Positions 2,468 through 43,295 of a stretch of DNA of 64,000 bases are shown in pieces. The DNA lies in contig KB906767.1 in the NCBI GenBank assembly GCA_000381625.1, positions 4,517,357-4,581,356 of the forward strand. The letters are read 5' to 3'. The position numbers and the translations under genes are program-made. Every line of letters starts with the position of its first letter. Position 1 is the stretch's first letter. This stretch comes from Bryobacterales bacterium KBS 96. GTDB lineage: Bacteria; Acidobacteriota; Terriglobia; Bryobacterales; Bryobacteraceae. The notes under the pieces were generated by a model. It saw nothing but the letters and a program-made list of their open reading frames with translations, ran no database searches and was not told the origin of the DNA.

Positions 2468-2501
2468 AGACTATCGCGAAAGTAGATCTGCTGGACTGTG
2501 G

Positions 2502-2521: not shown

Positions 2522-2560
2522 AGTGAGAAACGATTCGAAGCCTGGATTTATCAATTTCTT

Positions 2561-7505: not shown

Positions 7506-7512
7506 GAGATCA

Positions 7513-8810: not shown

Positions 8811-8882
8811 CCGGTGTCCTTTCTTTGCGCGAGTTCGTAGTGTACCGCCAAGCGGCACTTTTATTTTGGTCAAAACAAAGTG

Positions 8883-8911
8883 TTGACCTCGATGTTGTTA
8901 CGCTCTATACT
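8883..8911 (+). promoter_or_regulatory. Sigma-70 promoter of the TonB receptor gene
   Basis: TTGACC, then 17 bases, then TATACT. An inverted pair CTATAC (8905-8910) / GTATAG (8930-8935) straddles the -10 and early transcribed region and could be the operator of the divergent ROK regulator; that role is inferred. Confidence 0.7.
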
Positions 8912-8975
8912 TGACGCTTCGGCGGCGGTGTATAGCGCTGTATTCTGGAAATTTAGTTGTTCATAGGGGTTGACA

Positions 8976-11900: not shown

Positions 11901-12278
11901 GCGGGTGGCGATGTCGCGAATGTGGGTGGGGGCAGCCAGCGGGCGCAGGTTGTGGGCGATCCGCTGTCGGGATTCACCCAGAGCCGGTTGGAATGGTTCA
12001 ATACCGCGGCGTTTGTGACGCCCGAGCCTTATACATTTGGCAATGCAGGGCGGAACAACATGACCGGCCCCGCTCAAAAGAACGTCGATTTTGTCACTTT
12101 CAAGGACTTCCTTCTCACCGAGCGACTGAGGCTTCAGTTTCGAGGAGAGTTCTTCAACGTTTTCAATCATCCGAACTTCGGGTTGCCTGATGGTAATACC
12201 CAGAGTTCTTCGTTCGGCCAAATCAACAGCGCGAGTGCGCCGCGAGATATACAGTTCGGGCTGAAGCTACTATTTTAA
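8976..12278 (+). CDS. TonB-dependent receptor, carboxypeptidase-regulatory-like N-terminus
   Basis: Outer-membrane active importer, 1100 aa, of the large Oar-like class common in Acidobacteriota. A signal peptide ends near SLSAQ. A carboxypeptidase-regulatory-like beta-sandwich spans about residues 25-110 (GSINGTILDPSGSPVAGG). The plug follows (about 120-230, with LPLNGRSFTQL and MDGVLNN), then a long 22-strand-type barrel ending in LLF, the C-terminal aromatic that marks barrel proteins. ATG at 8976 is chosen because AGGGG lies six bases upstream; an in-frame TTG lies at 8970. It has its own promoter, is divergent from the ROK gene, and is followed by three TPR genes. It likely imports mannan- or glycan-derived oligosaccharides; the substrate is inferred from neighbours. 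Confidence 0.92.
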   Translation: MLLTKKLCVLIPALLFLIISLSAQTTTGSINGTILDPSGSPVAGGQVDVTNKETGLHRSAQSSTNGTYIIPQLPPGTYDVSLQKQGFANASRPSVQLLVNQNATIDFKLSLTTVSQTVEVTGVPPALNTTNATIGQVIQHQQIVDLPLNGRSFTQLALLTPGAAPQESGQQGAFTVKQGAGGISPSVNGQRGQQNNFTMDGVLNNAVYTNTWAISPPPDALQEFNVQSHIVDTQFSISSGANINIVTRSGTNEFHGAAWEFLRNNALDARNFFDQSKNPYKQNQYGVTFGGPVRLPHFNGKDNTWFSAYWEGFRARQSLSSFASVPTAAMRQGDFSGLLGPQMGTDSLGRPLYKNEIFDPNTSRPDPSNPANVIRDPFPGNIIPAGRINPSSQLVLQKYYPNPNLNVGPGVLPNYQFVGSTNTDTDQTGIRVDHRFGDNDTIFGRYNRSNSTLLRPEGLPTYQQSLVNYAQTAAVGYTHLFGPTIILSLHYGYTNTNFGQFDEAAGLSFLQATNYIQLSPVRNNIPLGPQIGISNGYTGISQFAIPLGPQQNHDGHADLSIVRGNHTIGVGGMVYHIHSFDDGWGMSTSFTQNATSQGGLVNGTGSGPASFLLGLPDNLSGFLGTTSADINSYWFAGYVQDQWQVSKNLTITAGLRYDFVQPASYASPVSGLDIQTGNFLVSAPAPPLFKTANVRSSFFDPHYNGFQPRFGIAYRASEKTVFRTAFAIFDDHNNTLVQQAQDPRISWPQGVGISVPDLNRGVPDTYFNNLPAASTFFNPLQPLVDFGANPRNKIPYVMEYNAGVEQQLSNSLVLNLDYVGSVGRHQFIQPAANTALYPGPGTLASRGQPFPQYGGAFSYDENAGNSSYNALQAKLQKSLSFGLNFLASYTWSKSLDIQSEGQSGSIATIYDLRRDWGPSDFDRRHLFVFSGIYQVPAGKGKAHLAGSNRFMQTLLGDWNVGTIVTFNSGQPYSISAGGDVANVGGGSQRAQVVGDPLSGFTQSRLEWFNTAAFVTPEPYTFGNAGRNNMTGPAQKNVDFVTFKDFLLTERLRLQFRGEFFNVFNHPNFGLPDGNTQSSSFGQINSASAPRDIQFGLKLLF

Positions 12279-12288
12279 TCTTGTTGGG

Positions 12289-12314
12289 AGGGCTCTTCCC
12301 GTAAGAAGAGCCCT
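12289..12314 (+). terminator. Intercistronic hairpin after the TonB receptor
   Basis: AGGGCTCTT and AAGAGCCCT form a perfect 9-bp stem with an 8-base loop, 10 bases after the receptor stop and 9 bases before the next ATG. There is no T-run, so it may be a leaky terminator or mRNA-stabilising hairpin that lowers expression of the TPR genes relative to the receptor. Confidence 0.55.
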
Positions 12315-12323
12315 GCACGTAGT

Positions 12324-13850
12324 ATGGTCGCGATCCCAACTCTTCTTTTCGCTGCCGCCCTGGCTGCCGGCGTCTGCGATAACAGTCTCAAGCCAGCGGC
12401 GTCGGCGATTCAGCACAACGACGCCGCGAGGGCGAAGTCCATTCTTGACTCGGTTCGTTCGGAGTGCGCCCAGTCGAGCGATTTCAACGAACTGGAGGGC
12501 GTGGTTAACGAACTATCTGGCAGGCCGGCAGAAGCCGAGGCGGCCTTTCGCAAAGCGGTTTCGCTGAATCCCCAGTCAGCCCGGTTGTGGTCCGACCTCG
12601 GACTCAGCTATCTGAAAAATCGAAACATTCAGGATGCCGCAAAAGCTCTCAGGCAGGCCCTGAAGCTGAATGCCGCCGATGAGAGGGCCGCGAAATACGC
12701 GCTTGGAATCTACGTTCAGTTGGGAGATTGGCAGCAAGCGCTGGCAGTGACGGGGCAAATTAACGCCACGACCAAAGCGAATCTCCTTCGCGATCCTGCA
12801 TTCTTTTTATGGGTTGCGCGAACACTACTTGAGGCGAAGCAGGCAACCCAGCTTGACCGTCTTCTCGCCGCGAACACGCAGCATCTCTCCCCGCCGCTCC
12901 TATTTTCACTGGGCACATTATTCGCGCAGCATCAACGGTATGAGAAGGCTGTTGAGTATCTAAAACGAATCCCGCCTTCATCGGCTGACGATGCAGTTTA
13001 CTTCAATCTGGGGCTGGCGTATTCGCATTTGAAGCAGTTTCGCCGGGCGCGTGAGAGCTATTATAATGCCATCGATAAAGACGCAACGAAACCTGAAGTC
13101 TATTTTCGCGTGGGTCTGGATTTCGCCACTCTCGGACAGGTAAGGAAAGCGTTGCCGTGGCTATTTCGAGCGCGGGAGCTGGCGCCACGCCGGGCTGATA
13201 TCGCGTATGCGCTGTGCGAGCAGTTATTGTTGTTGAACTATGTGGCGACCGCGAGAGACGTGATCGACGCTGCTCTCGAGATGAATCCAGGCGATGTGCT
13301 TCTTACAGTGGCGCGCGGAGATGTTGCGCAGGCGGACAATGACGCGACGTCTGCTGAGACGATGTATAAGCAGGCATTACAGCGGGAGCCCAAGTCTGTT
13401 CCGGCGCTAGTTGGACTTGCGCGCACGGCGCAACAGGGCGGCAAGGATGAGGAAGCCGTAAAATACCTGAAAACCGCGTTATCGATTGAGGCGAATGATC
13501 CAGCTTCCAATCGCCAAATGGGCATCATCGAAGCCCGGCGCGGTGATTGGGCGGCTGCCTCGTCACATCTCGAACGGGCATGGGCCGTCGATCAATCGAA
13601 TCCTGACGTGGGGCTGGATCTCGCGAGAGCGTTCCGGCATGATAACCGCCCATTGAAGGGGCTTGCGGTGCTGAACCTTGTTCAGCCGGCGCTGCGGGAT
13701 TCGGCCGATTTTCATTTTGAACTTGCTCAAGTCTATGCTCAGCTACAACGGCAAAAAGAAGCCCAGGCCGAGCGGGCCACCGTGCAAGCGCTTCGCGCAG
13801 CCGCAAGCGATGCGCTTCCTTTCGAAACCCCCAAGACCTATGTGTATTGA
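12324..13850 (+). CDS. Exported TPR-repeat protein
   Basis: 508-aa protein built almost entirely of tetratricopeptide repeats after a short hydrophobic leader (AIPTLLFAAALAAGV). Repeat units with the usual small/large pattern recur about every 34 residues, for example AEAAFRKAVSLNPQSA, AAKALRQALKLNAADE and ESYYNAIDKDATKP. TPR arrays bind peptides or act as scaffolds. SusD-type glycan-binding lipoproteins are also built on TPR helices, and this gene directly follows a TonB receptor, so a periplasmic or outer-membrane partner role is plausible. No lipobox is evident. No strong ribosome site precedes the ATG. Its stop codon overlaps the start of the next TPR gene by 11 bases. Confidence 0.85.
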   Translation: MVAIPTLLFAAALAAGVCDNSLKPAASAIQHNDAARAKSILDSVRSECAQSSDFNELEGVVNELSGRPAEAEAAFRKAVSLNPQSARLWSDLGLSYLKNRNIQDAAKALRQALKLNAADERAAKYALGIYVQLGDWQQALAVTGQINATTKANLLRDPAFFLWVARTLLEAKQATQLDRLLAANTQHLSPPLLFSLGTLFAQHQRYEKAVEYLKRIPPSSADDAVYFNLGLAYSHLKQFRRARESYYNAIDKDATKPEVYFRVGLDFATLGQVRKALPWLFRARELAPRRADIAYALCEQLLLLNYVATARDVIDAALEMNPGDVLLTVARGDVAQADNDATSAETMYKQALQREPKSVPALVGLARTAQQGGKDEEAVKYLKTALSIEANDPASNRQMGIIEARRGDWAAASSHLERAWAVDQSNPDVGLDLARAFRHDNRPLKGLAVLNLVQPALRDSADFHFELAQVYAQLQRQKEAQAERATVQALRAAASDALPFETPKTYVY

Positions 13851-15015
13851 GCGGAAACGCCTCGTCCTGCTTGCTTTCGTGTTTGGATTTCTCTGCCAAT
13901 TGGCAGCGGCGCAAACGAGATGTGACGCCAAGCGGCTTTTTGAACAGGCCAATACACTAATAGAAGGCAGAAAGTATAGCCAGGCAGCCGGAACGTTGAA
14001 TGAATTGAGGCTCTGCCGGAATATTTCGGCTGTCGAGCGCTTCAATATGGGCTGGCTTTACGGAAGAGCGCACGATTTCAAAACTGCGCTTACCGTGTTC
14101 AAAGCGGTTCCGGATGAGGTTCCCGACCGCCAAACCCATCAGTATGCCATCGCTTTAAGCTATTTCGAATTGAATGACTATCCGGCGGCTGTCGATGTCC
14201 TGACGAAGCTGAAATCGCAAAGTGCTCTTGATGCGAAGTGCGCCAACCTATTGGGAGTTGCTTACTCGAAGTTGGGCGCTTACGACAAGGCGTATAGCGC
14301 TTTAGAGGAAGCGATCCACGCCGATCCGGGGAATATGTCGGGCTATCTCAACCTGGTCACTCTTTGCGCCGACGGCGGAGATTTTGTCAAGGCTGCCAGC
14401 GTTGCCGCCGGCGCGGTACGAGCGTTTCCCAAATCGTCCGAAGCCTTGATCGTGGCCGGCGCCGCCAACACGCTGCTGGGGCGGTTGGATTCTGCTCATG
14501 ATAATTTCAGCAAGGCGGTTCAGCTTGCGCCCGAGAATGCGGACGCACTATTTTTCCTTGGGCTAACAGACTACAAGCAGGGGAAGTTCGGCGAGGCGAT
14601 TACGTTACTGCAATCGGCTGACGAGTCGGGCGTCGAAGATTCCGACCTGCACTATCTGCTTGCCGAATGTCTCTTGCGGGCCAGCCCCGATAAACCGGGG
14701 TTGGCGATAGCGGCGCTAAACCGCGCGATCGAGCTGAATAAGAATTCGATTTCGGCCAGAACTCTACGTGGCCGGTTGCTTCTGGATGCGGGGCAGGCGA
14801 AGAACGCATTGGAGGATCTGGAGTTGGCGGATCGTCTCGATCCTGGTTCGCGAAGTGCCGCTTACACGCTGGCGCGAGCGTATCGCGCGGTCGGCCGCGA
14901 TGCCGACGCGAGCGCGCTCTTTGAGAAAGTTCGCGCGCAAGCTACGGAGCCGCTTAAAGAAATGAGCGACCGGCGGTTGAATAGCACTTTGACCGAACTG
15001 GGCGCCCAAAAATGA
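13840..15015 (+). CDS. Exported TPR-repeat protein
   Basis: 391-aa second TPR protein of the run. The frame is open further upstream inside the previous gene. The ATG at 13840 is chosen because it overlaps the preceding stop (ATGTGTATTGA) and gives a clear signal peptide, RLVLLAFVFGFLCQLAAAQ. At least eight TPR units follow (DFKTALTVFKAVPDE, AYSALEEAIHADPGN, AHDNFSKAVQLAPEN, ALEDLELADRLDPGS). Translational coupling to the gene before and an ATGA overlap with the gene after suggest the three TPR proteins are made together. The specific function is unknown. Confidence 0.83.
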   Translation: MCIERKRLVLLAFVFGFLCQLAAAQTRCDAKRLFEQANTLIEGRKYSQAAGTLNELRLCRNISAVERFNMGWLYGRAHDFKTALTVFKAVPDEVPDRQTHQYAIALSYFELNDYPAAVDVLTKLKSQSALDAKCANLLGVAYSKLGAYDKAYSALEEAIHADPGNMSGYLNLVTLCADGGDFVKAASVAAGAVRAFPKSSEALIVAGAANTLLGRLDSAHDNFSKAVQLAPENADALFFLGLTDYKQGKFGEAITLLQSADESGVEDSDLHYLLAECLLRASPDKPGLAIAALNRAIELNKNSISARTLRGRLLLDAGQAKNALEDLELADRLDPGSRSAAYTLARAYRAVGRDADASALFEKVRAQATEPLKEMSDRRLNSTLTELGAQK

Positions 15016-15548
15016 AAGAATTCCTCATACTGCTTTCGTTTGGAACATTAGGCCTCTGCGCGCCCGATACGATGCACGTAAAGTCGGCGCTTTCAACGTA
15101 TGATGCTGCACAATCCGCGATACAGAAGAACCAGACTTCGGACGCCATCACATTACTTCGGAAGGCGATTGAAATTGAGCCAACCTTTCTCGATGCTCTT
15201 GAAGCATTAGCAGATCAACTCCTGAAAGGAGGCAGGTCTGCCGAAGCCGGAGCGGCCATGACGCAGTTGCTTGAGATCGATCCGGACGCCACTCATTATC
15301 GGGTGCTGCTCGGCGAACTTCTGCTGAAGGAAAAGCAAGCGCAGCGCGCGCTGGCGCAGTTTTCGCTGGCTTTGAAACATGAGCCCCGCAATGCGGAGGC
15401 GTTGTTGGGATTTGCGGCCGCAGCCAGGCAAGTGGGCATGAATGATCGAGCCGCACAAGCTCTTCGGCGCGGGCGGAAGCTATACCCATCCGACGATCGT
15501 TTCAAGGCCGCAGATGCCGGCCCTCATGATCGCGGTCTCCGGCCTTGA
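15012..15548 (+). CDS. Small TPR protein, C-terminus probably altered by an IS remnant
   Basis: 178-aa third TPR protein, starting in an ATGA overlap with the previous stop. The leader MKEFLILLSFGTLGLCA looks like a signal peptide; the Cys in GLCA could be a lipobox Cys but the motif is imperfect. About three TPR units are visible (AITLLRKAIEIEPTF, ALAQFSLALKHEPRN, AAQALRRGRKLYPSD). The last dozen or so codons run into DNA that encodes an IS21 istB remnant on the other strand. The native C-terminus was therefore probably replaced by read-through into the insertion. It may still be functional, since the repeats are intact. Confidence 0.7.
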   Translation: MKEFLILLSFGTLGLCAPDTMHVKSALSTYDAAQSAIQKNQTSDAITLLRKAIEIEPTFLDALEALADQLLKGGRSAEAGAAMTQLLEIDPDATHYRVLLGELLLKEKQAQRALAQFSLALKHEPRNAEALLGFAAAARQVGMNDRAAQALRRGRKLYPSDDRFKAADAGPHDRGLRP

Positions 15549-15549
15549 G

Positions 15550-15705
15550 GAAAGTTTTGGAAAAGCCTTTCCGGTCACTCCAGCGCAACTCGATTTCGCG
15601 CCTTTCCGTTTCGGCGAGCGGCGCCATGGCCCAGTCGTCGATCACCAGCACGTCGATGCGGCTCAAACGTACGAGCAAACTACCCAGACTCCCATCAGCG
15701 CAATC
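15550..15705 (-). pseudogene. istB: IS21-family istB remnant
   Basis: On the minus strand the frame encodes DGSLGSLLVRLSRIDVLVID followed by DWAMAPLAETERRE, the Walker B region of the IstB helper ATPase of IS21 elements. Only this central fragment, roughly 50 codons, is recognisable. Walker A, istA and both IS ends are absent. It is flanked by the truncated TPR gene and a sulfatase tail, so it marks an old insertion or deletion event. Confidence 0.75.
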
Positions 15706-30040: not shown

Positions 30041-30085
30041 CTTCCAAGCTGTTGGTTGCGAGTTCGATTCTCGTCTCTCGCTCCA
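30041..30085 (+). other. 3' half of tRNA-Gly(UCC): probable attachment-site remnant
   Basis: From the anticodon loop (CTTCCAA, anticodon TCC) through the T-arm (GCGAG-TTCGATT-CTCGT) to the acceptor strand CTCTCGC, discriminator T and CCA. No matching 5' half (expected start GCGAGAG) or 5' anticodon stem lies upstream, so it is not a functional tRNA. Such 3' tRNA halves are left by tyrosine-recombinase integration. It lies next to the RepA/DnaA-like module. No integrase is present in the window. Confidence 0.72.
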
Positions 30086-32511: not shown

Positions 32512-32585
32512 TAGGTCGATCCGGCAATGGTTGGCACTGATGACGGCTGGCGCAGAGCAGCAATCTGAATGCGCTTTGGCGGTCG

Positions 32586-33368
32586 TTAGAATCGCGGCTG
32601 CTCGCCTTTGATGCTCATACCACCATCCACGGGGATGTTCGCCCCATTGATCAGCGACGATTGATCGGAAGCGAGAAAGGCGACGACATTAACAACTTCT
32701 TCGATAGTTCCCACTCGTCCTCTCGGCTGGACGGCATCGAACACACGGCGTGTCCGTTCGGGATCGGGTTGCGCCGCGACGAATTCATGCAGCATGGGCG
32801 AGTCGATTGTGCCGGGCGCAATTGAATTCGCGCGAATACCTTCCGAGGCGTGGTCGATTGCCAGGGCGCGCGCGAGAGCGATCAACGCTCCTTTCGTGCC
32901 GGAGTAGGCGGCCAATCCAGGAAGTCCATTGATGCCGGTAATGGACGCCATCAGGATAATGGAACCTGTTCCGGCCGATCGCATGTGCGGGATAACCTGC
33001 CGGCAGGCGAGAAACGCTCCTTTCACGTTGACGTCGTAAACACGGTCCCAATCTTCCTCCGTCGTCTCCAGGATTGTTCCAGTCGGCATCACTCCGGCGG
33101 TGTGAGCGAGAATTGTCGGACGTCCGAAAGTACTAAGCACATGTACGACAGACTCCTCCACGCCGGACGCGTGGCTAACATCAGCCGGCAACGCGACTGC
33201 GCGCTGTCCGGACTCCAATATCTCGCGCACGACTCGATCGCAGCCCGCTGCGTTCTTGTCGAGCACTCCTACTGCGGCGCCTTCCCGGGCGAATCTCAGT
33301 GCTATCCCGCGGCCAATACCGCCGCCGCCACCGGTGACGATCGCAACTTTGCCTTCCAGTTGACGCAT
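32586..33368 (-). CDS. Classical SDR oxidoreductase
   Basis: 260-aa cytosolic NAD(P)-dependent dehydrogenase of the FabG/glucose-dehydrogenase type. Visible signatures: TGGGGGIG (12-19), Asn114 in DVNVKG, Ser142, Tyr155 and Lys159 (YSGTK), and the C-terminal NGANIPVDGG. It is the last gene of a minus-strand operon behind a sugar-porter MFS (16-base gap) and a Tat-exported glycosidase-like protein, so it probably oxidises or reduces a sugar or uronic acid taken up by that transporter. The exact substrate cannot be read from the sequence. Confidence 0.88.
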   Translation of the reverse strand: MRQLEGKVAIVTGGGGGIGRGIALRFAREGAAVGVLDKNAAGCDRVVREILESGQRAVALPADVSHASGVEESVVHVLSTFGRPTILAHTAGVMPTGTILETTEEDWDRVYDVNVKGAFLACRQVIPHMRSAGTGSIILMASITGINGLPGLAAYSGTKGALIALARALAIDHASEGIRANSIAPGTIDSPMLHEFVAAQPDPERTRRVFDAVQPRGRVGTIEEVVNVVAFLASDQSSLINGANIPVDGGMSIKGEQPRF

Positions 33369-33384
33369 ACTACTAATTTCCTTC

Positions 33385-34722
33385 TCATGATCGAACTAGC
33401 CATTGGCGCTCAATCATTTCGAGCGTCTGCCCTTTCGTTTCGGGCACAGCGCGCCACACGAAAATGAACGTAAAGAAAGACAGAATGGCATACAACCAGA
33501 ACGCTCCAGTGATCGAGATCAGTTTCACGATACTAAGGAAGGAAGACGTGATCGCGAGGCAAGCGATCCATAGACTGATGGTTGCAATCGACATCGCCCT
33601 TCCGCGGATGTGTGTGGGAAAGAGTTCAGAAATTAAAACCCATACTCCGGGGCCCAAGCCGACCGCAAAGAAGCCGACGTAGCCGAGAATCAGGCAGAGC
33701 GTCAAGGTCGGTGACGGGACATGCGAACGGAACAGAAAGCCCACGAGGAGCAGGCACATGCCCATTCCGGCCGATGCAATCATCAGCAAAGGCTTCCTGC
33801 CGACTCTATCGATGGTGAATATTGCAAAAACCGTGCAGAGCAGGATGACGACTCCGATGACGACGTTGGCCCAAAGCGCAGCCGAGGCGCTGCCGGCCCC
33901 AAGCTGTTCCGTGAAAATGATGGAGCCGTAGTAAAGGATCGTGTTAATTCCTGTGATCTGCTGCAAAACAGCAAGCACGACGCCAATGATCAGTGGACGG
34001 CGTAGCGACCGATGAAAGAGATTGACGTTTGCTTCTTCAACCAGCGCGCGTCTTATTTCAGCCAGACGCGATTTGGGTTCGCCTGACCGATCTAGGACAG
34101 CAAGTGCTTGGTTGTCGCGGTGCATCTTGACCAGCCAGCGCGGGCTTTCGGGCACGGCGAACAGAGCGAAATAGAAGAGTAGCGAGGGAATGGCCATGGA
34201 CGCAAACATCCAGCGCCATGCCGCGGGGCCGGTGAACGATAGTGCCCAACCGATTACGTAGGAAAGTAGAATGCCGATGGTGATTGCGAGTTGATTCAGA
34301 CTCACTAGGCGCCCACGCATGTGCTCCGGAGATATCTCTGCGATATAAAGCGGCGACAACATGGAAGCGATGCCGATGGCGATTCCACCTGCTATGCGGG
34401 CCAGTGAGAACCAGATAAGGCTATTGGGAAGAGCCGTCGCTGCTGAGGATAGGGCAAAGATGGCTGCGGAAATGAGCAGTGTCTGTTTCCTGCCACGTCG
34501 ATCGCTAATGGTGCCGGCAATACTTGCCCCGAGGACGCATCCCGCAAGCAGACTGCTGGCGGCGAGTTCAGTTTGCCAATCGTTCCAGGCGAATTGCCGC
34601 TTAAGAAAGACAATAGCGCCATTGATGATCGCTGTGTCGTAGCCGAAGAGAAGCCCCCCGAGCGCGCCCACTGAGGCAATCCGGTAGACATAGGCTCGGT
34701 CGATTTGGGTAGCTTGCTGCAT
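33385..34722 (-). CDS. MFS sugar-porter family transporter
   Basis: 445 aa, twelve predicted helices. Sugar-porter signatures: GGLLFGYDTAIINGA at helix 1, GTISDRRGRKQTL after helix 2, PESPRWL before the central loop, and PETKGQTLE after helix 12. It is a second sugar porter, clearly diverged from the one at 2561-3937. It lies 45 bases behind the glycosidase-like gene and 16 bases before the SDR, so it likely imports the product released by the former. The operon promoter carries the LacI-type operator at 37411-37426. Confidence 0.88.
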   Translation of the reverse strand: MQQATQIDRAYVYRIASVGALGGLLFGYDTAIINGAIVFLKRQFAWNDWQTELAASSLLAGCVLGASIAGTISDRRGRKQTLLISAAIFALSSAATALPNSLIWFSLARIAGGIAIGIASMLSPLYIAEISPEHMRGRLVSLNQLAITIGILLSYVIGWALSFTGPAAWRWMFASMAIPSLLFYFALFAVPESPRWLVKMHRDNQALAVLDRSGEPKSRLAEIRRALVEEANVNLFHRSLRRPLIIGVVLAVLQQITGINTILYYGSIIFTEQLGAGSASAALWANVVIGVVILLCTVFAIFTIDRVGRKPLLMIASAGMGMCLLLVGFLFRSHVPSPTLTLCLILGYVGFFAVGLGPGVWVLISELFPTHIRGRAMSIATISLWIACLAITSSFLSIVKLISITGAFWLYAILSFFTFIFVWRAVPETKGQTLEMIERQWLVRS

Positions 34723-34767
34723 TAGTGCGTCGTTTCGATGAATACCTATTGCGTCTCCCCCACGACT

Positions 34768-37275
34768 CTAGAGCAGAGTGACGAGATAGGGTTCATCGGG
34801 ACCACTGACGGGCGCAACGTGCTTCGATTCTCCAATGGAGGCCGAGACGTAGTATTCGGCCAATTCTTTGCCAGAATCGAACGAACCCACTCTCGCCCGA
34901 TACGTTCTACGGCCCATCAGGGTTGCGGGAGTAGAACTCCACGCGCGAGATCCTCTGACGCGCGTGTGAAGGGCAACATTCCGAACCGCCGCGGTTCCTG
35001 TCGCGATGATCATGATCCTGAAATCAGATCCCTTCTCGATAATCCCAGGACGGGTTGGGACGACAAGCCGGGCTGGGACATCTGGCGCGGGCTGAACAAC
35101 CTGACGATAGAGCGCCTCGACCTGCGGGGGCAGTTCACCCAGGTATTCCTGCATCGACAACCGGAGGCGCACCAGCGCCAGCCGTACATATTTGTTATGC
35201 ATGGAGGCCAATTGGCCGATGTCCTCGCGAGTTGCAATGATCCCCTGGTAGCGAAGGATGGTTTCGCGAACCAAAGGCGCTAGCTTGTTCCACAGCGGCA
35301 GCGCGTCATCGGCGATTTTTCGACGAGCTTCGTCGATCTGCTTCTCCGCTTTTAGTTTCGAGGCTTCGTCCAGGATTCCTTGCAGTTGGTGCGCTAAAAT
35401 CCACGAGTCTGTATACGGCACGGTGAACCCGAGAAAGCCGGCAAGATAGGCTAGCCGCTCGCGCTCGACCGCGGATCCTGCCGAAGAACCAATTTGTTGC
35501 AATTGGGAAGCGATGTTGGCCTGAGCAGCTACAAGCTCTTTCGATGGTTCGTACTTACTCCAGTACAGAAACCCCTCGTCGTAATCGGCTGCATATTCGT
35601 GCGTAACAACATGCCCGTTTTCGACACGATTTGTTCCGGTGTGCAGCAGCTTTTGATGCAAGTCCATGTCGTTAAGAACAGCGCCTAGCTGGGAAGCCCG
35701 CGGCGCGGACGCTTGAGATTTCGCGTAGGCTTCGAAGTGCGACGCGGGAGTCAAGGAACTGTCCCAAGTTGACTTCGCCAGATATCCAGCCGTTGCGTCC
35801 ATAATGCGATTGCGCCAATGGATGCCTAGAATGCCTTGACAGCCATACTTCGCCGCTAGCTCCACGTCTCGCTGTGTCCGATTGACATGAAACTGCGGCA
35901 ACCACATCGCGGGATCGTCTTCGAGCCACGGTATGGGCCAGCGTACGCGGTTTCCCAGTTGCCCGAATACTTCATCTACAGGATCCCAACCAAGAGAGTC
36001 GTTCAGACAGGAGAATACAACGTCTTCCGGTATTCGTTTGTGCAGATCGGGGAAATGGCGCACCACTCCACCCCAGCCGGAAAGCACCAGACGTTTCTTG
36101 GGAGCATTCCTTCGAAGAAAATCATGAGCCTGCAGAAAGGGAGTAGCCGAGAGCGGGACGCCTGTCTTACGACTCTCCCAGTTCATGTTCTCGTCTTCCC
36201 AAAGCCAGACATACTCGACTTCCGGATAGGACTCCAGAAGATCCGCCAGTCGCGCCTCAAGCATTTTTCGTGCAGTAACGGATTCGATATCGAATCGGGC
36301 GCCTCCTGGATATTTGTTCTTCTCTTCGGGCCTGGCCGTTACCTCCGGCGGAAGTGCGCGAAAAATCTCATCGGGAATCGAATAAGGCTCAAACCCGACA
36401 CCGGTCGCAATGCCGAATGTGTTCGCATATCGCAGTGCTTTGTGGAGGGCTGCCTTCGTCCGCTCCGCGATTTCCCAAGGATTTTGAGAATGAATGGTTG
36501 CATCGGTGCCGAATACTTCACCTTCGAAGAATTGGGGCGCGCCCATGCCGAGGCGTGAGATCCGTTGCGGGATATAGCCCCAGCGGTTGCTGGCGGTGTT
36601 ATCGAGATAGGCCAGGTGACCGGCGCCTGCGTATTCAAACGACAGGAACGATTCAGCCCATTGCCGTGCGCCGGTGTACACATGTACGCCGAAGAGATTG
36701 AAGCGCATGCGCAACATCGCTTCGAAATAAGCCTGAAAGTCTTCGTCGTTGTAGACCGAGATGCAATTCAGGAAATCCGGCCACGGTAATAGTCCCCGCA
36801 CGGCAAAACGAGGCGAGGATTGCCAGGGCCGGTTCATGGCCGGAAGAACCAACCGGCCTGGTAGTTCTGGCGGATAATTCTCTCCATCGAGACCGAAATA
36901 AACGCCCTGATGTTCCAGAAAATCGAATACCGCATAGAGAAGAGCAAGGTCGGTTGCGGCCGATACTGTAATCTCGCTATCTCGAACGGAAATCGAATAG
37001 GATTCCTTGTTTTTGAAGCTGTCGGCATCTGTGCGTAGCCGAAAAACGGGGCCGGTTTCGGAAGAGCTTGGGGATGCAGTGAACTTGATCTCGGCCGCTG
37101 GCTGAAGGCGAGTCATTCCTCGCAAGAGTTCCCGTTCGGCCAGGCGCCGATGCAGAGAACCGGAAGGCAAGGATTCGATCAGAAGGCTATTCGATTCCGC
37201 CGCCGACAGTAGAAAGGCGGCTCCTCCCGCCACGGCGCATCCTTGCAAGAACTGGCGTCGATTTTGGCTTGACAC
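34768..37275 (-). CDS. Tat-exported glycosidase-like protein (GH20/GH67/GH115-like N-terminus)
   Basis: 835 aa. The leader NRRQFLQGCAVAGGAAFLLS is a twin-arginine signal; the Cys could be lipidated. Residues about 60-150 resemble the zincin-like domain that precedes GH20, GH67 and GH115 barrels (YSISVRDSEITVSAATDLAL then FDFLEHQGVYF). The middle has TIM-barrel-like strands (FNLFGVHVYTGARQW, VEYVWLWEDENMNW, KRLVLSGWGG, GCQGILGIHWR), with the acidic WEDEN cluster a candidate catalytic site. The C-terminal third is helical, followed by a small beta domain (about 740-835). It is first in the operon with MFS and SDR. Alpha-glucuronidase- or hexosaminidase-like activity is possible; the family is not settled. 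Confidence 0.75.
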   Translation of the reverse strand: MSSQNRRQFLQGCAVAGGAAFLLSAAESNSLLIESLPSGSLHRRLAERELLRGMTRLQPAAEIKFTASPSSSETGPVFRLRTDADSFKNKESYSISVRDSEITVSAATDLALLYAVFDFLEHQGVYFGLDGENYPPELPGRLVLPAMNRPWQSSPRFAVRGLLPWPDFLNCISVYNDEDFQAYFEAMLRMRFNLFGVHVYTGARQWAESFLSFEYAGAGHLAYLDNTASNRWGYIPQRISRLGMGAPQFFEGEVFGTDATIHSQNPWEIAERTKAALHKALRYANTFGIATGVGFEPYSIPDEIFRALPPEVTARPEEKNKYPGGARFDIESVTARKMLEARLADLLESYPEVEYVWLWEDENMNWESRKTGVPLSATPFLQAHDFLRRNAPKKRLVLSGWGGVVRHFPDLHKRIPEDVVFSCLNDSLGWDPVDEVFGQLGNRVRWPIPWLEDDPAMWLPQFHVNRTQRDVELAAKYGCQGILGIHWRNRIMDATAGYLAKSTWDSSLTPASHFEAYAKSQASAPRASQLGAVLNDMDLHQKLLHTGTNRVENGHVVTHEYAADYDEGFLYWSKYEPSKELVAAQANIASQLQQIGSSAGSAVERERLAYLAGFLGFTVPYTDSWILAHQLQGILDEASKLKAEKQIDEARRKIADDALPLWNKLAPLVRETILRYQGIIATREDIGQLASMHNKYVRLALVRLRLSMQEYLGELPPQVEALYRQVVQPAPDVPARLVVPTRPGIIEKGSDFRIMIIATGTAAVRNVALHTRVRGSRAWSSTPATLMGRRTYRARVGSFDSGKELAEYYVSASIGESKHVAPVSGPDEPYLVTLL

Positions 37276-37410
37276 TGAGTGCTCCTGATATCTGAATCTG
37301 CAGCCGGGCGTGGATCACGCAACGCTAGGCCTTGCGAGGCAACCGAATTCTTGGTCAACCAGCCGCACTTGACAGGAAAACGAGTATCGGTGTAGCGCAA
37401 AACATGGTTA

Positions 37411-37426
37411 CGTTACCGTACACGGA
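37411..37426. promoter_or_regulatory. LacI-type operator of the glycosidase/MFS/SDR operon
   Basis: CGTTACCGTACACGGA, identical over 16 bases to the core of the site at 43158-43179 before the TonB receptor. It lies directly downstream of the minus-strand promoter and between the operon and the lacI-type gene. Confidence 0.7.
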
Positions 37427-37434
37427 CTTGGATT

Positions 37435-37463
37435 ATAGTATCTTCCTCGATACTTGGTGTCAA
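37435..37463 (-). promoter_or_regulatory. Promoter of the glycosidase/MFS/SDR operon
   Basis: Minus strand TTGACA, 17 bases, TACTAT. A consensus TATAAT overlaps three bases further on (20-base spacing). Confidence 0.55.
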
Positions 37464-37562
37464 GCCGAATCCGCAGGCGCACTAGAGGAACACGTCATGC
37501 CTTGGACACAATCGAGTTGAGATCCTATAAGTGCGCTTGGTCTGGATAAGTACCATTCTCTT

Positions 37563-38642
37563 ATGAAGAGGATTGGAGTTCGGGAACTCGCCAAATTGGC
37601 GAATGTTTCTGTCGGCACTGTCGATCGCGCGCTGCATGGCCGGAAGGAAGTCAACGAACAAACTCGGAAGCTGATTCTGCGGATTGCGGCAGAGCATGGT
37701 TATACGCCCAACCTGACGGCGCGTGCTCTGTCCGTAGGTCGAGCAAACGTCCGTATCGGCGTATGCATTCCCAAAGAAATTCGCTACTTCTACGATCAAA
37801 TGCGAGACGGCATCTTCGATGAGGCGCGCCACTTCGAGCATGTTGGCGTGGAATTGATTTATCGCCCGGTAAAACGACTAGGCTCCAAGAGCGCAACGAC
37901 AATCAAGAGTTTACTCAATGACAACATTCGTGCGTTGATTCTGGTGCCCGGCGACCCGATTGAAGTTGCGCCGCTGATTGAAATTGCCGAGAAGCAAAGG
38001 AACGTTCGCGTGATCTGCCTGGCGACCGACGACTCGCTTAGTTGCCGGTCGACCGCCATCTCCGTGGAGCCGAAGCTCAACGGCAGATTGGCAGCGGAAT
38101 TAATGGCGAAATTCGTACCGCGAAGTTCCAAAGTTGCGATTGTCACCGGCATGGTCGCTACAGAAGACAACGGGAGGAAGGTTGAGGGCTTTTCCGAAGT
38201 ATTCCATGCCGAGTGCCGCAATGGCAGCATTGTGCAGGTGATTGAAGGACATGAAGATGAAGAAGAGACATACAACAAGTGCGTGCAGCTACTTCGCAAG
38301 CACCGCGATCTCTCGGGAATCTATATCAGCACGGTGAATTGTATTCCGGTCTGCAAAGCAATCAGGGAGAGTGGACGCGCGGAAGGCATCAGAGTTGTCG
38401 CAACCGATCTTTTTGCTGAAGCTGTGCCCTATTTTATGGACAACACGCTTTCCGCTTCCATATACCAGAACCCCTATCGTCAGGGGCAAACGGCGGTGCG
38501 TCTGGTCGTGGATCATGTGTTACACGCCAAAGCTTTTCCTCCGACCATATATCTGAATCCCGCGATCATCATGCGGTCGAATTTGAACCTGTTTCGAGAG
38601 CTACAGCCGCACGATCGGAAAACTCGATCCGAATTCGAATAG
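37563..38642 (+). CDS. LacI-family transcriptional regulator
   Basis: 359 aa. The N-terminal LacI helix-turn-helix is complete (VRELAKLANVSVGTVDRALH then the hinge-side segment YTPNLTARALS). A periplasmic-binding-protein-like sensor follows (about 65-345; NVRIGVCIPKEIRYFYDQMR, AGR-type loops, ASIYQNPYRQGQTAVRLV near the end), of the class that binds simple sugars such as ribose, xylose or galacturonate. It is divergent from the glycosidase operon; the shared gap holds the operator at 37411-37426, and an identical core precedes the TonB receptor at 43099. It is therefore the likely common repressor of module 3. The effector is unknown. Confidence 0.9.
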   Translation: MKRIGVRELAKLANVSVGTVDRALHGRKEVNEQTRKLILRIAAEHGYTPNLTARALSVGRANVRIGVCIPKEIRYFYDQMRDGIFDEARHFEHVGVELIYRPVKRLGSKSATTIKSLLNDNIRALILVPGDPIEVAPLIEIAEKQRNVRVICLATDDSLSCRSTAISVEPKLNGRLAAELMAKFVPRSSKVAIVTGMVATEDNGRKVEGFSEVFHAECRNGSIVQVIEGHEDEEETYNKCVQLLRKHRDLSGIYISTVNCIPVCKAIRESGRAEGIRVVATDLFAEAVPYFMDNTLSASIYQNPYRQGQTAVRLVVDHVLHAKAFPPTIYLNPAIIMRSNLNLFRELQPHDRKTRSEFE

Positions 38643-38651
38643 AGAGGGAAG

Positions 38652-39800
38652 CTACGGCGCCGGTGGAGTTTCCTGGCGACTAATCCGCGTGGCTTGTCCG
38701 ATCCAATCGTCTGCCACGCTGTCCCTGTAAAGATTCCGGCTGCGGTCGAATTGAGCAGCAGCTTTGTCAGCCCATCCTAACTTCCGGTAGGTTTGCGCTA
38801 GCAGGATACTGGTCTGTTTCGACTTTGGATTCGCACGACTCGCGGATTCGAGCAGCTCGGCTGCCCGGCTCAACTCGCCATTTAGGAGACACCAGCGTCC
38901 CATTTCGAATTGAGTGAGAGCGTCGTGGGGCCGCATGCTTAACGAACGCGCAAGATATGGCTCCGCTTCTCGGTATCGTCCGATCTCCGAATAGAGGCTT
39001 CCCAACGCGAATGCCGCTGGAAAGTATTGCGGATCGGCGCGTACCGCGAGCTTCCAGGCGTCAATCGCTCGATCGAATTGCCGTTGCTTAAAATAGGTTG
39101 CGCCCAAATAGAAGCGGCTGTCGGCCCTATTGGGCGCCAGGCGCAGCGCCTTTCCAAAAGAGATTCGGGCCCGCTCATAGTCTTGCCGCGCATATTCAGC
39201 CAGCCCCATGAGGAAATGCACCTCCTGGGCGTCTGGATCAGCGCTCAGCAAATCCGTCAGAAGTTTGTCCGAATCTTTCGTCTTTCCCAGGTTCCGATAG
39301 GCGGTAGCTAACCCGATAAGGATGCTCGGATCGTTGCTGGGAAGCAACTCCCGATACGTTGCGGCAGCTTCCGTGAAGCGTCCCGACTCGCTGTAGCAGA
39401 TGGCCAGCAATTGGAGAAATCGACGGTCGTGCGGATTCGCCTGAAGTACTGCACGCATGGCAACGATGGCATCATTCCAGGCCCCCAGACGGTAGTATGC
39501 TAACGCCAGATCAATCTTTACCGGGAGCGCCTCGGGAGCGATGGAGAGAGCTTTCCGGTAAGTCTTGACGGCCTCATGGAATCGGCCTTGGTGGGCGAGA
39601 ACAACTCCCAGATTGGCCAAAGCGGGAACTGAGCGAGGCTCTTGGTGGAGAAACGTCCGATACGATTGCTCAGCGGCTGAATAGTCTCCGCGCCTCTGCC
39701 GTTCGCGTCCGGCATCAAACGCCGATTCGGCGTAGATACCGGTTCCTGCCGCCAATATGAACAGGAGCGCGACTATCGATAACTGTGAAAACCTGGCCAT
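38652..39800 (-). CDS. Exported TPR-repeat protein downstream of a TonB receptor
   Basis: 382 aa, start at ATG 39800 (an in-frame TTG lies two codons upstream). The signal peptide is LSIVALLFILAAGTGIYA. About ten TPR units fill the rest (AEQSYRTFLHQEPRSVPALA, AVKTYRKALSIAPEALP, ARISFGKALRLAPNRAD, AIDAWKLAVRADPQYF). It begins 29 bases after the TonB receptor stop with no hairpin between, so both are on one transcript. This repeats the receptor-then-TPR order of module 1. A role as a glycan- or receptor-binding partner, comparable to SusD, is inferred from synteny only. Confidence 0.85.
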   Translation of the reverse strand: MARFSQLSIVALLFILAAGTGIYAESAFDAGRERQRRGDYSAAEQSYRTFLHQEPRSVPALANLGVVLAHQGRFHEAVKTYRKALSIAPEALPVKIDLALAYYRLGAWNDAIVAMRAVLQANPHDRRFLQLLAICYSESGRFTEAAATYRELLPSNDPSILIGLATAYRNLGKTKDSDKLLTDLLSADPDAQEVHFLMGLAEYARQDYERARISFGKALRLAPNRADSRFYLGATYFKQRQFDRAIDAWKLAVRADPQYFPAAFALGSLYSEIGRYREAEPYLARSLSMRPHDALTQFEMGRWCLLNGELSRAAELLESASRANPKSKQTSILLAQTYRKLGWADKAAAQFDRSRNLYRDSVADDWIGQATRISRQETPPAP

Positions 39801-39829
39801 CCGCAACGTGCGGCCGACAATGCCTAATT

Positions 39830-42800
39830 CTAGAATTCTATTTTCATGCTCACCTGGAGGACTCGCGCTTCATGAGCACTCGTCACTTGCCCGAAGTTTC
39901 CCGATCCGAGCGAATTGCTGACGTCCCATAAGTTCGTGTGATTGAATGCATTGAAAGCATCACCGCGCAACTGATAGTTTACGTGTTCCCCAAACTTAAA
40001 GGTTTTAAAAAGCGACAGATCCCAGGTCTGAATACCGGGTCCTCGAATCAGGTTTCTCCCCGCATTGCCGAAGAACCCGAATGACGGAGCCGTAAACGCC
40101 GCTGGATTGAACCAGGATGCGGCTGTTTGAGCGCCGGACGTCGGATCAATGCCCGGCACGACGTCCGGTCTGCTTGCCAATCCGACCGTACCGCCCGTTA
40201 TACCAATATTGATGGGCTGCCCGCTTTGGAACTGCGTGATGCCCGATAGCTCCCAGCCTCCCAATGCTTCTCCCAGGAAGCCCCGTTGCGATCGGAAGAA
40301 CGGCAGATCGTATATGTAATTGAAAACGAGCACATGCGGGCGATCGAATGCGGCCAGGCCACGCTCCGCTCGCAGATCATAACTGTTCTGAGGAGTCTCG
40401 CCGAACCCACTCGCATCGGTAATCGCTTTTGACCAGGTGTATGCCGCTTCAAACAACAAGCCTCTGGACAGGCGGCGCTTGAACGAGACCTGGAGCGAGT
40501 TATACGTTGAAGAAGCCGTGTTCTCTTGCTGTCTAATGGACGAATAACCGGCGTACGGTGCTATCAACGCTGCCGGAATAGAGTTCGTATTCAGGAGAGG
40601 ATTGAAATCAAATCCGTTTTCTGGAAACGGTTGATTGATGTCGCGGGCACGATCAAGGTGGCGGCCCTGTGTCCCGACATAACCGACGTCGATGACAGTG
40701 CCGGGGACGATCTCTCTCTGTACATCGAGGCTATAAGTTTGCACCATCGGATTCTTGTAACTGTAATCTAGCGTCGTCAGCGACACGGGATTCTGCGCAC
40801 CGGCTTTGCCGGCGGCCGGATCGCTCAACAGCGGATTAAACACCTGGACCACGCCACCATTCGGAGGATTGCCGACCATTCCGTAAATGTCGTTTCCTTG
40901 TACGCGATAATAGCCGATTCCATACCCAGCTCGGACAGACCACTTCTGTTGTCCGGTTGGATCCCAGGCCAATCCGATCCTGGGTCCGAAATCCCAGGGA
41001 TGGTTTTGCACTAAGCCTCTTGGCAAGCCCGATTGCGGAGTCTCGATGCCATTTAGGGCGTTTCCGGAACCTGGCTGAATAGTGCCGTCCGGGAGGATGG
41101 TCACCGCTTGGGAAGGATTGTACGCGCTAGGAATGAAATTGCTTATCAAATTATTCTCTTCGTACACATGAGGCATATAGAAATAGCGAACACCCAAGGT
41201 AACGGTCAGCCGCTGAGTTGCCTTCCATGTATCTTGCGCATAGAGCTCAAGCTGGTTGTATACGTAGTTCGGCGTGATCACCTTCGCCAACTCACTATAA
41301 GAAGCGCCGTAGCCTAACATGAAATCGGCAATGGGATCGTTTGTGAAGACGCCTGTGAAATTGAATCCACCCTGATAAGCCGGATTCACTTGGGATTGAA
41401 CGGGCGTCACGGAATGTTGAAAGGTTCCGCCGAATTTGAGCGAATGAGTTCCCAGTATTTTGGAAAAGTTATCAGTTACAGACTGGATGTCGTGATGGGC
41501 CCACCAGGGGTAATAGCTGGTGTCGATTTGCCCCCAGCCTCCGCTGAAGCTTAGATTTGGAATCTTATTGGGAGCCCCCGCAGGTGAGGGGAACAGGCGC
41601 GGAATATTCAGTCCGTCCGGCGCCAGGAAGGCTCCCTGTAGCGTGACTGCGCCTTGGTCCTTTGACCCGTAATTGCTTGCGTAATCATAAGAAACTTCGT
41701 TGAGCATGGACGAACTGATGCTGGTGGTTGCCTTTGCGAGGAAGCTATGACCAGGCAGATTGGCGGTGGATCCGATATTTGGAAACGACTGACCTGACCA
41801 CAGGACGCCGGACTGTTGCTGCACTTCGGTGTCCTGAATATAGCGAACCTGGAGTTGCGTATTCGTGACAAGCTGATGCGTAACGTTTACCGTTTCCTGA
41901 CGCCAATCGTCAGAATCTGGAGCATTTGCGTTGTAGTTTAGAAACCCTGAGGTATTCGGTTGAGGAAAGTTTTGTTGAAGGAGAAGCAAAGCGTTCGGAT
42001 CAAGCCGATTGATTGGAATCTGGTTATTGGCAAATTGCTGATGCGTGACAGGGTCGATAATCGGCATGCCGATCCGCGCCGCTTCGGCGGAAAAGTCTCC
42101 CGCTCGCATGGCGGGAGTGGGTGTCGCGGCGAGGAAGGTGTCCTGAGTGCGTTTCTTTCGCCATTCTTCGGCAAAAAAGAAGAACGTCCGCGAGCGATTG
42201 GTATTGTACAGCCGGGGAATGAAGACAGGGCCACCGACGCGATACCCGAAGTTGTTGTACCGCAAAGTAGGAATGTTGTTCGCAAAGGAGTAACGGGCGT
42301 CCAACGCGTCATTCCGGAAGAAGTCGTAAGCGGCCCCGTGAAAATCCCTTGTGCCAGTGCGTGTGACGACCAACAGGTTTGCTCCGCCAGCGTTGCCATA
42401 TTCAGCTGAATAATTGCTGGTTTGCATTTTGAATTCGCCGATGGTTTCCATCCCGGGAGAAGTCAACAGCCCGACTCCGTTCCCCATATCGGTGTTTTCG
42501 ACACCATCGACTTGGAACCCAGAGGACTCCTGGCGCTGGCCATTGATAGCAAAGCCGCGGCTACTATTGAAACCGGTGCCACCCTCGTCGCCCATTGTCC
42601 GGGCCGCACCTGGAATGAGTTGCTGCAGACTAGTGAATTCCCGGCCGTTTGTGGCGAGATCCGTCATCTGCCGTGACGAAACTACGGTGCTGATATCGGC
42701 TTGTTGTGTCTGCACGGTGGGCGTTGCTCCCGACACCTCTACGGTTTCGGAAGCTGCGCCAACCTGAAGCGAGAAGTTGACGGCGAGTTGATCGGCGACG

Positions 42801-43099
42801 TTGAGTTGTATGTCGGAGTGAGCGGCCTTTTTGAATCCTGCAGCTGTGACAGTGATGTCGTACCGTCCAACCGGCAGTGCGTAAGCCGCATAGATCCCGC
42901 TACTGTTCGTCTCGAATCTGCGTTTTTCGCCAGTTCCGGTGCTTTTTACAACCACGGCCGCATTAGGAACCACGGCGCCGCTAGGATCGCTAACCGTTCC
43001 CGTGATGACGCCTGTTGTTTGAGCGTTGAGGAAGTGTGCGGAAGACAACAGCAAGAGCATCTGGACTAGCCGTTTAGTCCAAAAGTCGGACGTGGACAT
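39830..43099 (-). CDS. TonB-dependent receptor, carboxypeptidase-regulatory-like N-terminus
   Basis: 1089-aa outer-membrane importer with GGAGG eight bases before the ATG. Signal peptide about 1-27 (ending LNAQ), regulatory-like domain about 28-115 (GVITGTVSDPSGAVVPNAAV), plug about 125-240 (MTDLATNGREFTSLQQLIPG, FQVDGVENTD), and barrel ending in MKIEF. The plug and barrel differ from the other two receptors, suggesting another substrate. A strong promoter and a LacI-type operator precede it, matching the operator before the glycosidase/MFS/SDR operon, so it likely imports the oligosaccharide handled by module 3. The TPR gene follows on the same transcript. Confidence 0.92.
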   Translation of the reverse strand: MSTSDFWTKRLVQMLLLLSSAHFLNAQTTGVITGTVSDPSGAVVPNAAVVVKSTGTGEKRRFETNSSGIYAAYALPVGRYDITVTAAGFKKAAHSDIQLNVADQLAVNFSLQVGAASETVEVSGATPTVQTQQADISTVVSSRQMTDLATNGREFTSLQQLIPGAARTMGDEGGTGFNSSRGFAINGQRQESSGFQVDGVENTDMGNGVGLLTSPGMETIGEFKMQTSNYSAEYGNAGGANLLVVTRTGTRDFHGAAYDFFRNDALDARYSFANNIPTLRYNNFGYRVGGPVFIPRLYNTNRSRTFFFFAEEWRKKRTQDTFLAATPTPAMRAGDFSAEAARIGMPIIDPVTHQQFANNQIPINRLDPNALLLLQQNFPQPNTSGFLNYNANAPDSDDWRQETVNVTHQLVTNTQLQVRYIQDTEVQQQSGVLWSGQSFPNIGSTANLPGHSFLAKATTSISSSMLNEVSYDYASNYGSKDQGAVTLQGAFLAPDGLNIPRLFPSPAGAPNKIPNLSFSGGWGQIDTSYYPWWAHHDIQSVTDNFSKILGTHSLKFGGTFQHSVTPVQSQVNPAYQGGFNFTGVFTNDPIADFMLGYGASYSELAKVITPNYVYNQLELYAQDTWKATQRLTVTLGVRYFYMPHVYEENNLISNFIPSAYNPSQAVTILPDGTIQPGSGNALNGIETPQSGLPRGLVQNHPWDFGPRIGLAWDPTGQQKWSVRAGYGIGYYRVQGNDIYGMVGNPPNGGVVQVFNPLLSDPAAGKAGAQNPVSLTTLDYSYKNPMVQTYSLDVQREIVPGTVIDVGYVGTQGRHLDRARDINQPFPENGFDFNPLLNTNSIPAALIAPYAGYSSIRQQENTASSTYNSLQVSFKRRLSRGLLFEAAYTWSKAITDASGFGETPQNSYDLRAERGLAAFDRPHVLVFNYIYDLPFFRSQRGFLGEALGGWELSGITQFQSGQPINIGITGGTVGLASRPDVVPGIDPTSGAQTAASWFNPAAFTAPSFGFFGNAGRNLIRGPGIQTWDLSLFKTFKFGEHVNYQLRGDAFNAFNHTNLWDVSNSLGSGNFGQVTSAHEARVLQVSMKIEF

Positions 43100-43157
43100 T
43101 CTGATTCCTCCCGGACTCCGAAATGGCGATACGAGACAGCTACTTCATGCAATAAGT

Positions 43158-43179
43158 GTTCCGTTACCGTACACGGAAC
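43158..43179. promoter_or_regulatory. LacI-type operator of the TonB receptor
   Basis: Inverted arms GTTCCGT and ACGGAAC around TACCGTAC. The inner 16 bases (43162-43177) are identical to 37411-37426. It lies 14 bases downstream of the -10 box, a repressing position. Confidence 0.75.
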
Positions 43180-43192
43180 CTATCCCCGGAAT

Positions 43193-43220
43193 GTTATACC
43201 GAGGGCGGTTGATGTGTCAA
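43193..43220 (-). promoter_or_regulatory. Promoter of the module-3 TonB receptor
   Basis: Minus strand TTGACA, 16 bases, TATAAC. Confidence 0.65.
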
Positions 43221-43295
43221 GAAGAAGAATCAATTTTGTCCGCGCAATGCGGCCGTGGGATCTCTCTTCAGATTGACAGATGTTGCAACTAAACA

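Follow-up and report, generated by a model that had tools for sequence, protein, structure and literature searches.

A half tRNA-Gly(UCC) in a Bryobacterales genome as a probable right-end scar of a decayed RepA-bearing integrative element

Why does one half of a tRNA gene stand alone in this DNA, and by what process did it arrive there? The window analysed here is the whole stretch of 64,000 nucleotides (G000:C1:4517357-4581356) from the 6.69-Mb genome G000, and the half gene, site D, occupies window positions 30041-30085. Its sequence, CTTCCAAGCTGTTGGTTGCGAGTTCGATTCTCGTCTCTCGCTCCA, comprises the anticodon loop, 3' anticodon stem, T arm, 3' acceptor strand and CCA of tRNA-Gly(UCC). When the bases on its 5' side were read directly, no tRNA continuation was seen. 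No tRNA in the window was called by ARAGORN or by Rfam at gathering scores, as is to be expected for a half gene. The features discussed below are as follows.

1-30040, no strand: window part of the segment between copies C and D (coordinates of C and D; Pfam)
28399-28878, minus strand: DnaA C-terminal helix-turn-helix protein, 159 aa, downstream of RepA (Pfam Bac_DnaA_C 2.3e-11)
28879-29914, minus strand: RepA/RPA replication initiator, pseudogene in two frames, 28879-29610 and 29603-29914 (Pfam)
29921-29939, plus strand: paired-repeat remnant TACGCCGATTACGCTGTTA, counterpart of TTACTCCGTTTACTCCGTTA elsewhere (alignment of 15 half sites)
29983-30040, plus strand: left arm of the putative attachment (att) site at D, with TTTTCAA at 30022-30028 and then 12 nt to the core (left-arm profile)
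30041-30048, plus strand: putative recombination core CTTCCAAG, the first 8 bp of site D
30041-30085, plus strand: site D, 3' half of tRNA-Gly(UCC) (direct reading, copy C, intact homologues in relatives)
30086-30106, plus strand: right-arm-like stretch TGTTTTCAACAGCTTGCAAGG (match with C and alignment of half sites; right-arm profile E=0.4)

The half gene and its copy

A second half, C, is located at G000:C1:4515479-4515523, 31.9 kb left of D and 1.8 kb before window base 1. It has 44 of 45 bases in common with site D, and the match between the two spans 105 bp at 86% identity. When the whole genome was searched with the pattern, allowing up to 3 mismatches, C and D were the only matches. Among the 29 loci of relatives retrieved with C (L056-L084), 27 hold an intact tRNA-Gly(UCC) whose 3' half is 91-98% identical to C, and the remaining two (L062 and L065) are half sites. 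The first-pass annotation had described D as a half tRNA-Gly(UCC) that keeps the anticodon loop to the CCA end and lacks the 5' half; direct reading and copy C confirm this, and the ARAGORN and Rfam results agree with its statement that no intact tRNA-Gly is present in the window. Two other identities of D were rejected: a complete tRNA missed by the callers, by the direct reading together with ARAGORN and Rfam, and a chance match, by copy C and the independent left-arm profile.

To the left of both C and D, within 300 bp, lies a RepA gene transcribed away from the half. It is intact (343 aa) at C and broken at D, where the two frames, with 1 TGA in the match, are 69% identical to the RepA beside C; the larger piece matches Pfam RepA_C (1.4e-11) and RPA (1.9e-9). 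As two scars are present and D comes after C, window positions 1-30040 fall within the segment that the two enclose. According to a Pfam scan of 10 of its ORFs, the cargo consists of two GH38 alpha-mannosidases, a sugar transporter, ROK and GntR regulators, a NanE-ROK fusion and RhaT, followed by DnaA_C and RepA. The whole segment is probably delimited as one element. The DNA to the right of D may belong to the host or to another element, between which the right-arm profile is too weak to distinguish.

Arms, RepA and integrase in an element family

Half sites like C and D are present in relatives too. The left side of each half is formed by a conserved arm, whose terminal TTTTCAA is separated from the core by 12 nt, and C and D share this arrangement. 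With a left-arm profile built from 18 half sites (15 in relatives and 3 from the tRNA-Gly(CCC) island of G000; C and D excluded), the two best matches in 175 kb were C (E=1.8e-13) and D (29983-30031, E=7.8e-6), followed by one at E=4.4. The right-arm profile is weak at D, yet D is its top match in 175 kb. Paired repeats like TTACTCCGTTTACTCCGTTA are seen farther out at many sites, on the left, the right or both sides; several intact tRNA-Gly(CCC) genes and halves also have similar pairs on their right. They may represent arm-type integrase sites or RepA sites.

The RepA clade, defined by at least 50% identity over at least 100 aligned aa, contains 13 copies, one of which runs off its contig on the side in question; five fragments of 39-94 aa were not counted. 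A half tRNA-Gly stands at the 5' side of RepA in 11 of the 12 assessable copies, at a distance of 109-267 bp from where the RepA match begins, the exception being the copy on G015:C1. Distant RepA (at most 35% identity) had a full half tRNA-Gly at none of the 16 fetched loci, out of 19 matches. The RepA/DnaA-like module, which the first-pass annotation had taken as cargo, is linked to the scar as stated there, but it is not loose cargo, as RepA lies at the element end in those 11 copies. A RepA query against genome contigs confirmed no relatives. RepA had matches in 0 of 50,697 phage records, and RepA-like proteins, all below 60% identity, were found on 194 of 72,556 plasmid records. The element may be of phage or satellite nature. 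As a separate observation, L093:2323-8263 (G005:C5) contains a 5.9-kb unit between two half tRNA-Gly sites, carrying a TOTE-type primase-helicase and a Schlafen AlbA_2 protein, which are possible defence cargo.

The integrase end can be seen at tRNA-Gly(CCC) loci. At 2310.9 kb of G000, the end of a gene for a 405-aa integrase is separated by 26 bp from a half tRNA-Gly(CCC), and at 2483.4 kb an integrase 94% identical to it adjoins the intact tRNA-Gly(CCC). Additionally, an integrase adjoins halves in G008 and G023, with a remnant in G022, and an integrase or its remnant adjoins the intact tRNA-Gly(CCC) in G001, G005 and G008; overall, 4 of the 5 intact loci examined have an integrase beside them. 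An integrase match also stands beside the half at 3 of the 12 loci fetched for half sites, L085-L096 (L089, L095 and, as a remnant, L094). In CCC members the target tRNA is intact, as for ordinary tRNA islands. The stretch G000:C1:2310929-2483437 (L095, L138, L179, L180) forms a second island in this genome, in which an intact tRNA-Gly(CCC) with its integrase is followed by three halves. Each of the three lies beside an unbroken RepA frame, and in two of them the 3' half differs from that of the host's own gene.

Around B, C and D, the situation is different. G000 has 24 matches to PF00589, none of them between 4,386,120 and 5,196,279, and neither PF00589 nor tblastn of one family integrase (best E 0.32) detected an integrase at 4445-4620 kb. 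The absence of an integrase reported for the window by the first-pass annotation extends over this larger region. A reading frame at L127:7025-7330, right of B in G001, includes PVMEILGHS, which we take, on an unscored resemblance to a tyrosine recombinase C-terminal motif, to be a possible integrase remnant.

Where halves and target, intact or split, are on one contig, 7 of 7 halves share the strand of the target and are downstream of it, a count made up of 3 CCC and 2 UCC halves in G000 and 2 in G008, which are not independent cases. C and D are 54 and 86 kb to the right of the UCC target A, on the plus strand. Copies often neighbour one another, at distances of 3.8 kb (G008), 5.9 kb (G005), 20 and 27 kb (CCC island of G000) and 32 kb (C to D).

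By comparison among these genomes, an element family can be recognized with a common left arm and core position, a RepA end and, in the CCC members, an integrase end. The interpretation of D as an att scar of such RepA/Int elements is supported by copy C, the left-arm profile, the linkage of RepA with the half in 11 of 12 copies, and the integrases beside some halves and beside four of five CCC genes. Site D would be of the attR type, composed of left arm, core and tRNA 3' half. In an intact member, the RepA initiator and a tyrosine integrase would mark opposite ends, and recombination would take place at the anticodon loop of Bryobacteraceae tRNA-Gly genes (CCC or UCC). Comparison at tRNA-Gly(CCC) suggests that the usual attP carries the tRNA 3' half, by which the tRNA would be restored beside the integrase, with the displaced half marking the far end.

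The split host gene and its replacement

An intact tRNA-Gly was expected by the first-pass annotation to lie leftward on this strand, and a search upstream for an intact tRNA-Gly(UCC) with an adjacent integrase was proposed. A partner does exist on the left and on the same strand, but the host gene there, A (4461715), consists of a 5' half only; the complete gene behind it, B, is a different one, a replacement, and no integrase is present. A lies beside glnE (named from its sequence), 85.7 kb left of D and 53.7 kb left of C, and corresponds to the 5' half, as far as the core CTTCCAAG, of the tRNA-Gly(UCC) that is standard in the family. Many relatives have intact genes with an identical 5' half, and the stems of A pair with the 3' half of C. 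The core common to A and C is the 8 bp CTTCCAAG in the anticodon loop. After the core of A there is a 66-bp spacer and then B (4461819-4461889), a complete tRNA-Gly(UCC) of another type without an encoded CCA. The order on the plus strand is glnE, A, core, 66-bp spacer, B, 54 kb, left arm and half C, 32 kb, left arm and half D. The split of A joins copy C, the left-arm profile and the RepA linkage in support of the earlier proposal that D is an attachment-site scar at the anticodon loop. The stretch from B to C also holds a large serine recombinase of 689 aa (L037:3452-5521), an IS21 helper (L037:575-1324) and an IS110 transposase (L036:18132-19184), which are signs of later insertions.

No restored intact target tRNA was found at the UCC locus, where A is only a 5' half and B has a different sequence. 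B as an ordinary restored host tRNA was rejected, as it differs from the C/D type in D arm, anticodon stem and T arm. A pattern of UCC anticodon loop and T loop has 6 matches in G000, namely B, C, D, a poor array copy (38 bits) and two outside Rfam tRNA matches. Of the tRNA-Gly(UCC) genes found in this genome, B alone scores well. Among the matches listed for 61 genomes, the B-type carriers G000, G001, G014, G030, G034 and G036 have no intact A-type gene, and some genomes have neither. The B-type tRNA (GCGGG..GGCCTA) is an ordinary gene in several genera (L266-L271, L273, L274, L099, L101, L102, L104), and viral contigs searched with one exact pattern contained none. Two further tRNA observations can be recorded. 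G030, which has the B type, also has an additional tRNA-Gly(UCC)-like match of neither common type (G030:C78:34606-34663). In G000, the stretch C1:2135037-2142440 (L040, L028, L032, L035) holds 28 Rfam tRNA matches (27 above cut-off) in 7.4 kb, many of them low-scoring and including the poor tRNA-Gly(UCC), and looks like a mobile tRNA array.

In a promoter consensus scan from glnE to the end of B (L031:1301-1640), one promoter-like site was found, that of A itself, with 0.2 expected; its -10 region is unchanged in G001. As the scan showed none ahead of B itself, B would be read from the promoter of A. The leader from A to B (L031:1397-1572) folds somewhat better than shuffles (z -2.29) and has spacer hairpins, a modest signal not used as evidence.

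Two draft assemblies, G001 and G172, were compared with this locus. Among 237 family genomes (G000 included, E at most 1e-15), the spacer-B unit was found in G000, in G001 of the same genus and in G172 of another genus. G001 has glnE, A, core, spacer and B in the same order as G000, within a 3.25-kb stretch of 84% identity. The spacer is identical at 61 of 66 positions, B is unchanged over 71 nt, and A has a 6-bp deletion in the anticodon stem. The collinearity of the two genomes stops at the end of B, and neither C nor D was seen in the G001 assembly, which is 88% complete. In G001:C145, only 107 bp separate the blocks that correspond to window positions -1139..15591 (8955-15591 within it) and 32577..43230, and the intervening 17 kb, including D, are absent there. 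The 107-bp joint holds a RepA-like remnant in the same orientation, which scores 30 with the RepA of C, as compared to a maximum of 20 in 300 random pieces, and this suggests that a RepA end was formerly at that joint in G001 too. With the RepA of D the remnant scores 20, the chance level, so an orthologous D in G001 is unproven.

In G172, the element left arm, 12 nt from the core, precedes core, spacer and B in place of the 5' half of A. By a left-arm matrix made from 15 sites (C and D included), the 32-nt stretch ahead of the core ranks 1 of 39,936 windows with a score of 20.5, the next being 8.1 and the 5' half of A -32. A left-arm profile HMM gave E=0.25 exactly at the core, its sole match at E of at most 1 in 20 kb, and the local score of the spacer match, 20, was above 1000 of 1000 shuffles (maximum 14). 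A tRNA-Gly(UCC) of the A type is intact about 210 bp upstream, with a right-arm-like stretch (E=0.033) behind it; the copy of B has decayed stems. One spacer-B unit therefore has two different left flanks that meet exactly at the anticodon-loop core, the pattern expected from site-specific exchange. Comparison with empty sites in relatives, also proposed in the first-pass annotation, yielded no UCC-type empty site: of the 66 loci obtained with a glnE query, some cut by contig ends, only the G001 contig has tRNA-Gly(UCC) adjoining, and thus no empty site from another genus was obtained.

The best explanation, and a strongly favoured one, is that a decayed integrative element left D as its right-end scar, that a B-bearing element split A, that an ordinary element lay between C and D, and that the integrases were lost. 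Most likely, A was cut in two by the integration of an element that brought a tRNA of its own, B, and no more than the 8-bp core, after which B would have taken over, read from the surviving promoter of A. C would be the far scar of this B-bearing element or of a tandem neighbour, and a second, ordinary element would have occupied the space between C and D. The integrases of the UCC locus would have disappeared afterwards. In G172, the simplest history would be that A was split as in G000 and then restored by an ordinary element with its own 3' half, so that B might have become free to decay. Against this explanation, C and D carry full 3' halves, which makes the B-bearing element exceptional in its family, and the right end and integrase of that element are unseen. 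The absence of an integrase at the locus, the UCC-type empty site that did not come to light, the three integrase matches and nine missing RepA matches among the 12 half-site loci, the weakly recognised right arm of D, the E=0.25 of the profile HMM in G172 and the occurrence of B-type tRNA as an ordinary gene in several genera also count against it.

A more far-reaching formulation, to which we give even chances, is that a plasmid-like RepA/Int element of Acidobacteriota used tRNA-dependent integration with promoter capture. It would have cut A at an 8-bp core and placed a promoterless B behind the host promoter, leading to lasting dependence of the host, and in another genus a later element with a 3' half would have restored the host gene while the replacement decayed.

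Three other explanations were weighed. In the first, which is unlikely, A was initially restored by the 3' half of the element, B arrived separately, the 3' part of A decayed, and the 8-bp core match is coincidental. The usual attP of the family, carrying a 3' half, fits such ordinary restoration; B-type genes occupy different loci in different genera, and the A half of G001 has decayed further. However, decay would not yield what is seen in G172, where spacer-B meets the element left arm, with its 12-nt spacing, exactly at the core.

Considerably less probable is that the half tRNAs form a conserved part of a RepA replication origin (repeats plus tRNA-like piece) spread by replicon insertion, for which the persistent association of RepA, repeats and half tRNA could be cited. 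Halves with the same arms occur without a RepA match at 9 of the 12 half-site loci (for one of these, L092, the sequence reaches just 0.3 kb in the direction of RepA), some halves and four of the five examined intact tRNA-Gly(CCC) genes have a tyrosine integrase next to them, and the 7 of 7 downstream, same-strand geometry likewise argues against an origin. The first-pass annotation had counted conservation of the fragment in relatives without the replication genes against a scar; the nine loci do show halves lacking RepA, but these belong to other genomes or other insertions. Finally, the joining in trans of the 5' half of A with C or D as an expressed split tRNA, to which the complementary acceptor and anticodon stems would lend themselves, is hardly credible with a complete tRNA-Gly(UCC), B, unchanged between two species, with 6 bp including anticodon-stem bases missing from A in G001, and with no C/D-type half in that assembly; we know of no bacterial precedent.

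Comparison with known integration systems

No description of the RepA/half-tRNA-Gly family was found in the mostly open-access literature on tRNA attachment sites, integrative elements of Acidobacteria and mobile elements of Bryobacter/Solibacter, or among the matches listed for tRNA-dependent lysogeny and accretion. Ordinary tRNA islands restore their target and leave a displaced fragment (PMC4383910). Islander-type islands resemble the present family in having a tyrosine integrase, an intact tRNA at one end and a displaced 3' fragment in the same orientation at the other, an anticodon-centred site class and tandem arrays. The UCC locus differs in having neither integrase nor restored tRNA, and the RepA end is a feature of the present family. 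As it has no integrase, the UCC locus would be rejected by the integrase filter of Islander. It is the CCC members that fit ordinary tRNA islands, and the UCC locus fits in part.

In tRNA-dependent lysogeny, exemplified by Fionnbharth (10-bp core) and Gaia (8-bp core), cores are 8-17 bp, the host tRNA is not restored, and the phage carries a tRNA of the same isotype (PMC10865867). The short core, the host tRNA that is broken and unrestored and the coexistence of related elements with full 3' halves are similar to the UCC locus, and a complete cognate tRNA supplied by the element would be a further likeness. Unlike those actinobacteriophages, the present case concerns Acidobacteriota and a RepA-bearing family that is only possibly of phage nature, with B 66 bp from the core; B appears to use the host promoter, and the split is common to two species. 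By analogy, the UCC locus would follow the logic of tRNA-dependent lysogeny and may be a member of that class; no complete B-bearing element was seen.

Replacement of a host tRNA by a prophage-borne one is also discussed for Sinorhizobium meliloti (PMC11476347), and, as cited in PMC10865867, for Lj965 of Lactobacillus johnsonii. Other Sinorhizobium prophages restore the tRNA, according to PMC12429752. In the S. meliloti and Lj965 cases, as in the present one, the host tRNA is unrestored or substituted by one that the element carries; these are other phyla, and prophages rather than RepA-bearing elements.

If the present explanation is true, tRNA-dependent integration would be extended from actinobacteriophages and a few prophages (Sinorhizobium, Lactobacillus) to Acidobacteriota and to a RepA-bearing family. 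It would also provide a concrete route by which an essential tRNA gene could be exchanged for a foreign one. Moreover, the relatives would form a comparative series of an intact host gene, a split gene with a conserved replacement, and a re-restored gene with a decaying replacement. The relation of tRNA-dependent systems to ordinary tRNA-restoring integration is called unclear in the 2024 paper (PMC10865867), and it is on this relation that the series would bear.
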